This document shows, one piece after another, positions 29,066 to 30,553 of a DNA stretch of 61,760 nucleotides. Position 1 is the first letter of the stretch. The number at the start of each line of letters is the position of its first letter. The DNA comes from Nitrospiria bacterium. GTDB taxonomy: Bacteria > Nitrospirota > UBA9217. The notes under the pieces are model-generated. The model worked only from the letters and a program-made list of their open reading frames with translations, was not told the origin of the DNA and searched no databases. The translations under genes and the position numbers were made by a program. Where the stretch lies: positions 1 through 61,760 of the forward strand of contig CAKKPG010000021.1 of the NCBI GenBank assembly GCA_919901555.1. Direction: 5' to 3'.

Positions 29066-29100
29066 GGAAAAACAAAACCACGAAGATTTCCTTCGTGGTT
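29066..29100 (-). terminator. Terminator of the MNT-HEPN-lysine peptide unit
   Basis: Perfect 10-bp stem AACCACGAAG / CTTCGTGGTT with a 5-base loop, followed on the minus strand by a T-rich run (TTTTGTTTTTCC). A second small stem (GATAGCC / GGCTATA) lies just before it. It closes the transcription unit that starts near 30524. Confidence 0.8.
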
Positions 29101-29144
29101 ATAGCCCGAGGCTATCGGACAACATCAGAAGCATCGTTTTCAGG

Positions 29145-29204
29145 TTATTTCTTTTTCGTGGTCTTTTTGGCTTTCTTTGCAGGAGCCTTCTTTTTTACCG
29201 GCAT
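29145..29204 (-). CDS. Lysine-rich micropeptide 2 (19 aa)
   Basis: Codes for MPVKKKAPAKKAKKTTKKK, a peptide of Lys, Ala, Thr and Pro like the tails of histone H1 and bacterial H1-like proteins. The ATG is preceded by the leader GAAAGGGGGTG, which is identical to the one before micropeptide 1, so the reading frame looks genuinely translated. It is the last gene before the terminator at 29066-29100. A peptide with this charge would be expected to bind nucleic acid or acidic proteins; this is inference. Short lysine-rich frames can arise by chance from A-rich DNA, but the region here is not generally A-rich. Confidence 0.55.
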   Translation of the reverse strand: MPVKKKAPAKKAKKTTKKK

Positions 29205-29299
29205 GGTATGTTCACCCCCTTTCACGATACGCACTTTCAGACGGTGAGAGCGCCTCTTTCAACCTGTTCCATGCACTTATTGAGAGATGATTCCAAATT

Positions 29300-29325
29300 C
29301 GCCGGGGGCGTCGATGCCCCCGGCG
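29300..29325 (-). repeat. Strong G+C hairpin between the two lysine micropeptides
   Basis: Perfect 10-bp stem CGCCGGGGGC / GCCCCCGGCG with a 6-base loop, in the 154-base gap between the micropeptide genes. There is no T tract after it, so it is not a standard terminator. It could slow decay or reduce read-through to the second peptide. Confidence 0.6.
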
Positions 29326-29358
29326 GGTCCCATTGGAGGGACACTGTATAAATGAGAA

Positions 29359-29415
29359 CTACTTCTTCTTCGCTTTTTTCTTGGCCTTTTTCTTCGCTTT
29401 CTTCTTGGCTGCCAT
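29359..29415 (-). CDS. Lysine-rich micropeptide 1 (18 aa)
   Basis: Codes for MAAKKKAKKKAKKKAKKK, a Met-Ala start followed by four exact AKKK units. It begins 45 bases after the HEPN-like gene on the same strand, with the leader GAAAGGGGGTG ahead of the ATG, shared with micropeptide 2. Codons alternate AAG and AAA and GCC/GCG, so it is not a simple DNA repeat: the protein repeat is better conserved than the DNA. This argues for selection on the peptide. I know of no named family. The charge suggests binding to RNA, DNA or polyanions. Confidence 0.55.
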   Translation of the reverse strand: MAAKKKAKKKAKKKAKKK

Positions 29416-29460
29416 CTACTCTCCACCCCCTTTCGGTGACCGCGTGTGCCTTCAGCGGCA

Positions 29461-29946
29461 TTATCTTGAAGCAGACTGCGTAACGTCGTTGAGCAACGAC
29501 ATCTGTGAGTACTTTTCCCGGATCCGGCCGTTGACGAGGGCAAGAAATTCTTCCGCGTCCCTGATCGCCTGCCCTGCTTCGTACCGTGATATGACCCTGC
29601 CGGCCTCTTCCATAAAGTTCTGGTATTTTCTCCTCATTCGGTCGAACTTGTTGATGAGGCTCTTGTACTGATCGCCCAGAATGACGCCCGTAGCCGTCAC
29701 GATGGTCTTCTGCATGTCCCTGCTTCTCCCGCCTTTGGGCCTGAATCCCTCGGACATGATGAGCGCCCTGGCTGAGCGTGACATGGCCTGGTACGCCGCT
29801 GCGAAGGCCCACTCTTCATCTTTATCCTGAAGCAGTTTGCCCGTCGCCAGATCGCGTTCCGCCCTCGTCATGAGACTGATAACCTCCGCCGTCTCGGTTG
29901 TCCGCTCTTCGAGGATGCCCATATCCCTGAGTGCATCATAGATCAT
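29461..29946 (-). CDS. HEPN-like helical protein lacking the RNase motif
   Basis: 161 residues, all helical. The central block WAFAAAYQAMSRSARALIMS then EGFRPKG is the HEPN core seen in HEPN-MNT pairs. The nuclease signature Rx4-6H cannot be formed: there is not one histidine in the protein, and the expected place reads RPKGGRSRDM. Its start overlaps the MNT-like gene by 11 bases, so translation is coupled. Partner role in a toxin-antitoxin-like complex is plausible by family; RNase activity of the usual kind is not. The two lysine micropeptides follow. Confidence 0.75.
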   Translation of the reverse strand: MIYDALRDMGILEERTTETAEVISLMTRAERDLATGKLLQDKDEEWAFAAAYQAMSRSARALIMSEGFRPKGGRSRDMQKTIVTATGVILGDQYKSLINKFDRMRRKYQNFMEEAGRVISRYEAGQAIRDAEEFLALVNGRIREKYSQMSLLNDVTQSASR

Positions 29947-30502
29947 CTTCCTTACCCGCCAGGAAAATCTTCTTACCTTTCACCACTTCCCGGATGAAGG
30001 GGTCTTTAGAATCCTTGCGCTTCCGATACTCCTGTTCATCAAAGACCAGATAATCAATCTCCCGCTTCAGTTTTTCCTCCAGGCCCATCACCATGTCGTT
30101 CAGTTCTGTTATGTTCACCTGGCCTATGACCATGATGTTGATGTTGCTGTCCTCTTTTTCGGCCCCCTTTGCGAAGGAACCGTAGATGAATGCAGCCTGA
30201 ACGCCTTTCAACCTCGACAGGGTGGCCTTGATGGAGCCCTGGACCCCCGTGGTCTTGAATATCAATCCCTTCATCTCGGAGAAAATCGGGGAGTTCCTGT
30301 TTGCGAAGTAGTATTTCTGAACGCCCCGCTTCTCCCTGGCCACAATTCCGATCTTTACCAGGTTGTCCAGTTCCCGCTTGATGCCTGCCGCATCCTTTCC
30401 GATGTGACGGGCGATCTCCCGGAGATAGAACTTGTCGTCAGAGTTATTAAAGAACAGGCCTAAAAGTTCAGCTCTCGTGGAGGAGAAGAGTTTTGTCAGC
30501 AA
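29936..30502 (-). CDS. MNT-fold nucleotidyltransferase-like protein with N-terminal HTH, catalytic Asp pair replaced
   Basis: 188 residues. A winged-helix region (about 1-75, YLREIARHIGKDAAGIKREL) is followed by a minimal nucleotidyltransferase domain (about 95-170). The signature GSx10DxD reads GSFAKGAEKEDSNIN: both catalytic aspartates are asparagine. Starts at TTG with GAGGTG seven bases before. In ordinary HEPN-MNT systems the MNT antitoxin adds AMP to the HEPN toxin; this copy should not be able to. The HTH suggests it binds DNA, possibly its own promoter, where a 14-bp motif is repeated. Confidence 0.8.
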   Translation of the reverse strand: MLTKLFSSTRAELLGLFFNNSDDKFYLREIARHIGKDAAGIKRELDNLVKIGIVAREKRGVQKYYFANRNSPIFSEMKGLIFKTTGVQGSIKATLSRLKGVQAAFIYGSFAKGAEKEDSNINIMVIGQVNITELNDMVMGLEEKLKREIDYLVFDEQEYRKRKDSKDPFIREVVKGKKIFLAGKEDDL

Positions 30503-30523
30503 CTTCGTTCACCTCGTAGACAA

Positions 30524-30553
30524 ATATACAACAAGAGTGTATGTTTTGTCAAC
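30524..30553 (-). promoter_or_regulatory. Promoter of the MNT-HEPN-micropeptide unit
   Basis: Minus-strand -35 TTGACA (30548-30553), 18-base spacer, -10 TATATT (30524-30529), about 22 bases before the TTG start. The -35 lies within one of two copies of ATGTTTTGTCAACA / ACGTTTTATCAACA (30542-30555; 30590-30603), a candidate operator. Confidence 0.65.

Follow-up and report, generated by a model that had tools for sequence, protein, structure and literature searches.

A putative ex-toxin-antitoxin regulator joined to histone-H1-tail-like Lys/Ala micropeptides in a Nitrospirota operon with signs of vertical inheritance

The window, i.e. the whole stretch of DNA that we analysed (61,760 nucleotides, 61.8 kb), comes from a Nitrospirota metagenome-assembled genome, called below its own genome (G000). 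It holds an operon of four co-directional frames whose features, from the promoter to the terminator, are the following:

30523..30552, minus strand: sigma-70-type promoter, TTGACA-18-TATATT; the extended pattern is matched once in the own genome, here.
29936..30502, minus strand: protein of 188 aa, HTH (ArsR-like winged helix) plus minimal nucleotidyltransferase-like domain (MNT) with GSx10NxN (Pfam Polbeta, AF2, Foldseek).
29461..29946, minus strand: HEPN (PF05168) protein of 161 aa, without RX4H and without the acceptor tyrosine (Pfam, AF2, Foldseek, motif table).
29424..29433, minus strand: Shine-Dalgarno (SD) AAAGGGGGTG of peptide 1, a form conserved across families.
29359..29415, minus strand: micropeptide 1, MA(AKKK)4, MAAKKKAKKKAKKKAKKK; ATG start, purifying selection on the codons in family f1.
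29300..29325, minus strand: G+C-rich hairpin separating the two peptide genes and lacking a T-run; nearly every family-f1 locus has a counterpart.
29213..29222, minus strand: SD AAAGGGGGTG of peptide 2, from the sequence.
29145..29204, minus strand: micropeptide 2, MPVKKKAPAKKAKKTTKKK; ATG start, purifying selection in family f1.
29066..29100, minus strand: intrinsic terminator, stem 29100-29076 and T-rich tail to about 29066.

The four frames, the promoter and the terminator all lie where a preliminary description of this DNA had placed them. The HEPN gene overlaps the stop codon of the MNT gene, and the motif AAAGGGGGTG ahead of both peptides (18-19 aa) complements the usual 16S 3' end almost completely. 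Every family-f1 locus extending to this point likewise has the same stem with T-tail after the last peptide. Besides, the hairpin at 29300-29325 might be a partial terminator or a 3'-end stabiliser setting the ratio of the two peptides.

Pfam assigns the HTH-MNT protein to Polbeta (E 8e-10), with NTP_transf_2 above its cut-off; its AlphaFold (AF2) model has a mean pLDDT of 87, and the best Foldseek matches include MntA (7bxo/8xeo) and ArsR-type repressors. The N-terminal HTH is that of the ArsR/SmtB-type repressors both by profile (hmmsearch match to 6j05, E 5e-4) and by winged-helix fold (Foldseek matches to SmtB, SqrR and CzrA); these are, however, free metal or redox sensors, whereas the operon HTH is fused to an apparently dead nucleotidyltransferase domain. 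The HTH part is more conserved than the nucleotidyltransferase part (0.76 versus 0.60). For the HEPN protein of the window, the Pfam match to PF05168 (E 1.3e-10) is joined by an AF2 model of mean pLDDT 87 and by Foldseek matches to 2hsb/1ufb.

In type VII toxin-antitoxin (TA) systems the MNT carries GSx10DxD, and the HEPN either RX4HXY (class I) or a conserved acceptor tyrosine (class II); class II proteins of the PF05168 type are normally devoid of RX4H but possess the tyrosine (PMC7641770). The replacement of DxD by NxN, already noticed in the window, is found there at residues 120 and 122, while the third acidic residue, D150, is kept in family f1. The losses differ from one family to another: NxN with the third Asp in f1, other combinations of residues elsewhere, so that the site is broken in 89 of 89 aligned MNT rows, none having S, D1, D2 and D3 together. 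The lack of histidine in the HEPN protein of the window was also correctly seen, but it is not odd in itself since class II proteins usually do without RX4H. The telling loss seems rather to be that of the acceptor tyrosine: the 23 operon HEPNs all show E, V, A, D or K at that position, against Y in two paralogues, L043 and L044. By sequence, the MNT and the HEPN of the operon are enzymatically dead, and the normal HEPN-MNT chemistry, doubted from the window, is indeed very unlikely given the breaks in all the MNTs and the loss of the tyrosine in all the HEPNs.

The relatives that keep GSx10DxD form another set: they resemble TA pairs, the HEPN is present and no Lys-rich peptide accompanies them. 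Those sampled are on four proteobacterial plasmids and, in Nitrospirota, at the paralogous loci L043 (G027:C44) and L044 (G035:C94), where an intact HTH-MNT and HEPN pair, with its acceptor tyrosine, stands in a genome that holds a separate dead operon as well. The preliminary description had reasoned that normal motifs and absent micropeptides in close relatives would make this copy a decayed TA pair; we find the reverse, orthologues that have the micropeptides and no DxD, and intact motifs only in the separate TA-like relatives without peptides. Since these keep GSx10DxD and the tyrosine that the orthologues have lost, the operon is neither a decay product nor a type VII pair. In the maximum-likelihood tree the MNTs of the operon and the TA-like MNTs make a single split, with a support of only 63/80, and the long branches of the TA-like rows render the rooting uncertain.

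An orthologue of the HTH-MNT protein occurs in 153 of 396 Nitrospirota genomes and in 97 of 170 genera, usually as a single copy. Among the 13 other genomes in the window's family, 11 have the protein at 81-88% identity, across genera, and the tree largely follows GTDB families. The neighbours depend on the family (lpxC, rfaE2, a DEAD-box helicase), lpxC adjoining the operon in 14 loci of several families. The phylum-wide and usually single-copy orthologue, the tree and the lpxC neighbourhood are thus signs of vertical inheritance across Nitrospirota. A phage or mobile origin was rejected: the collections searched gave one weak phage match and zero viral contigs, and the plasmid relatives that were sampled look like TA pairs whose motifs are intact.

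The HEPN gene is an optional part. It lies between the MNT and the peptides only in families f1, f3, f6, f14 and f35; elsewhere among the families surveyed, the peptide begins about 35-170 nt past the MNT stop. The large group without HEPN is one clade (support 100/99), to which a separate absence in f40 must be added. The grouping of these loci in one well-supported clade suggests that HEPN came first and was lost afterwards. The unit is therefore not centred on an MNT-HEPN pair, as had been thought from the window, HEPN being dispensable and missing from most families: the invariant core of the operon is the HTH-pseudoMNT plus a Lys-rich peptide.

Indeed, Lys/Ala-rich peptide ORFs follow the MNT gene on its 3' side in 85 of 87 loci, belonging to 23 families, and the two others are at contig ends. 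These peptides, 111 in total and one to three per locus, range from 13 to 150 aa; they consist of 46% Lys, 30% Ala and 12% Thr, have a net charge of about +0.5 per residue and mostly end in KKK (86/111). Across the 87 loci almost all are preceded by a near-perfect SD. Beyond the two operon peptides, the 61.8-kb window contains no SD-preceded Lys-rich small ORF; a scan of 551 kb of related loci likewise gave none away from the operon, its single extra row being the operon peptide of L154 read from an alternative start. The Lys-rich frames are thus beyond chance, and we discard the idea of fortuitous frames. In 99 whole genomes, the strict pattern SD+ATG+xxKK falls nearly always in the operon, plus a handful of other genes, while the reversed control gives 0. 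In family f1 the two peptides show 347 and 365 synonymous codon differences, compared with 154 and 141 non-synonymous ones, and the third position changes 4-5 times as often as the first or second; these counts are taken over sequence pairs, so that the events are not independent, but the direction is clear. The peptide frames thus behave as genes under purifying selection. A programmed frameshift fusing the peptides finds no support, each having its own SD and start.

Several observations were made aside from the operon. The other KKKAKKK matches in the own genome are Lys-rich segments of longer proteins, not peptides. Two longer own-genome proteins with such segments were noted at L182:4550 (G000:C120:22550) and L183:3876 (G000:C128:8104): one is small and CxxC-containing with a long Lys/Ala tail, and one is Lys-rich ahead of a translation-factor-like domain. 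At L180 (G078:C6:43453-43485, gene start near L180:8972), in a Nitrospirota genome of family f9 where no HTH-MNT match was found, a gene for a Lys-rich peptide, MATKKAAKKKTAKKAAKKKK, stands by itself, equipped with an SD and a hairpin; this peptide gene without MNT indicates that the regulator is not strictly needed. Finally, a separate family of 20-aa micropeptides with strong SD, MTIKKxxxKxATTCKCKxSC, is present in several Nitrospirota genomes, at L076 (G019:C304:2416), L082 (G049:C37:29980) and L087 (G003:C159:10371); these could be metal-binding or precursor peptides.

Upstream of the operon, TTGACA is present in 89 of 89 orthologous regions, 17-18 bp from a -10 that usually has 5/6 matches to TATAAT. 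GTTnnnAAA half-sites spaced by 21 bp were counted 35 times and essentially never in shuffled sequence, and of the 19 tandem half-sites ending in the -35 that occur in 26 genomes, 17 belong to the operon, to which the pattern is thus all but confined in each genome, although the kinship of the sequences inflates these half-site counts. Such a pattern fits a dedicated autoregulation, with sites that would lie on one face of the helix; the conserved TTGACA itself may be promoter only, rather than operator.

How does this operon compare with known systems? Its likeness to the type VII HepT/MntA pair is, in the window, the MNT fold (7bxo, 8xeo) in tandem with a PF05168 HEPN. It differs by the broken GSx10DxD and third Asp, the lost acceptor tyrosine, the frequent absence of HEPN and the addition of Lys-rich peptides. 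Moreover, type VII pairs are patchy and mobile, unlike this phylum-wide, vertical and usually single-copy operon beside lpxC, and the juxtaposition of HEPN and MNT, which holds in the window, does not hold in most families. As motif, tyrosine, HEPN adjacency and distribution, the defining features tested, all diverge, the operon cannot be filed under type VII, in agreement with what had been proposed from the window. The accompanying term "defence-like" is not retained, the operon being usually single-copy, distributed in the tree by GTDB family and next to lpxC in many families.

The other comparison is with H1-like proteins: Hc1/Hc2 of Chlamydia, BpH1 of Bordetella and the AlgP/PhaF tails of Pseudomonas have in common with our peptides Lys/Ala/Thr/Pro repeats of variable copy number. 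The operon peptides differ in that they stand alone, go down to 13 aa, come up to three in a row and have a dedicated HTH-pseudoNTase. The Pfam HC2 model (PF07382, cut-off 40 bits) gives 46.7 for the 108-aa peptide of f20, 38.5 for the 150-aa one and 18.1 for a 66-aa one, the match being largely compositional; neither a 98-aa version nor the GTG-start 29-aa reading of peptide 2 has a Pfam match, in a search that takes sequences of 20 residues or more. The parts can be traced to known kinds or are similar to them (HEPN-MNT pairs, H1-like tails, winged-helix repressors), and the operon itself is not described in the open-licence literature searched.

We propose, with a probability of roughly 0.55, that the operon has been inherited vertically and that its regulator, once part of an HEPN-MNT pair and now catalytically dead, controls short Lys/Ala peptides like the tails of histone H1. 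The regulator of a toxin-antitoxin pair would have been domesticated into an HTH-pseudonucleotidyltransferase. We infer that this protein regulates its own operon, most likely by binding the promoter and repressing or tuning the output, that its dead nucleotidyltransferase domain would serve as a dimer or ligand-sensing module, and that HEPN would be a remnant, perhaps RNA-binding as proposed for MtlR (PMC3710099), or else an accessory part that binds RNA. The peptide would bind, neutralise and compact nucleic acid, nucleoid DNA and possibly RNA, in the manner of Hc1/Hc2 and AlgP tails: the charge, the likeness to the tails of Hc2, AlgP and BpH1 and the HC2 match of the 108-aa f20 peptide point to this activity. 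As the strong promoter bears tandem half-sites, the ribosome-binding sites are very strong and a terminator comes directly behind the peptides, the output of polycation would be high but switchable. In the cell, DNA binding by the shortest peptides (13-20 aa) may be weak except at very high abundance. It is more doubtful, yet conceivable, that the operon represents a new control module, where an antitoxin turned dedicated sensor-regulator, its dead domain sensing the level of nucleotide or of peptide, would balance the charge of nucleic acids phylum-wide by means of nucleoid-packing peptides (13-20 aa) shorter than any known.

The target of the peptides could be another polyanion than chromosomal DNA, polyphosphate granules or else ribosomes and RNA. 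Judged from composition, a Lys/Ala-rich peptide would suit polyphosphate, RNA or membrane equally with DNA; AlgP, which has a tail of KPAA repeats, is associated with polyP granules (PMC9239181), the affinity for RNA is higher for Hc2 than for Hc1 (PMC2848022), and the operon peptides are alike in composition. We nevertheless regard this as rather unlikely, for no gene of polyphosphate or ribosome metabolism points that way in the neighbourhood.

A lower probability goes to a new type of TA system, the Lys-rich peptide being a toxin that condenses nucleic acid or harms membranes and the HTH-pseudoMNT both antitoxin and autorepressor. Certainly the gene order and the operator-like promoter recall TA operons, and the regulator is kin to the HEPN-MNT lineage. 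On the other hand a toxin would not usually have so strong an SD and a consensus promoter, the operon is vertical, usually single-copy and with conserved neighbours, and the peptide gene of G078 lives without any MNT.

That the MNT, the HEPN and the peptides build one ribonucleoprotein or regulatory complex, as the preliminary description had it, appears improbable. Co-transcription is probable, MNT and HEPN overlap in the families that bear HEPN, and dead HEPN domains have been proposed as nucleic-acid binders, with MtlR as a regulator of its own operon (PMC3710099); but most families have the MNT and the peptide without HEPN, so that what is conserved is not a three-part complex.

Two readings hardly deserve credit. 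A type VII pair in decay followed by chance frames would account for the lost active-site residues, but it is ruled out by the conservation in the orthologue survey: the identity across genera, the purifying selection on the peptides, and one locus phylum-wide with the intact TA-like relatives apart. Small frames acting as attenuator leader peptides rather than as products would explain the hairpins found after each of them in many loci; this is rejected wherever nothing co-directional follows, since the f1 operon is closed by a terminator and, in many families, lpxC comes next in convergent orientation, leaving no co-directional gene to govern, and the length moreover varies from 13 to 150 aa.

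Returning to the domesticated regulator and its histone-tail-like peptides, the operon would illustrate a route from a mobile TA regulator to a core vertical gene: catalysis lost, cargo gained and the toxin-side gene shed. It also indicates that peptides below the usual limit of gene calling, about 30 aa, can be conserved genes phylum-wide, with strong promoters and ribosome-binding sites, tiny genes that most gene finders would miss. Should the peptides indeed compact nucleic acid, they would count as minimal histone-tail-like proteins that stand alone, and the minimum sequence needed for a nucleoid protein would become a directly testable question.
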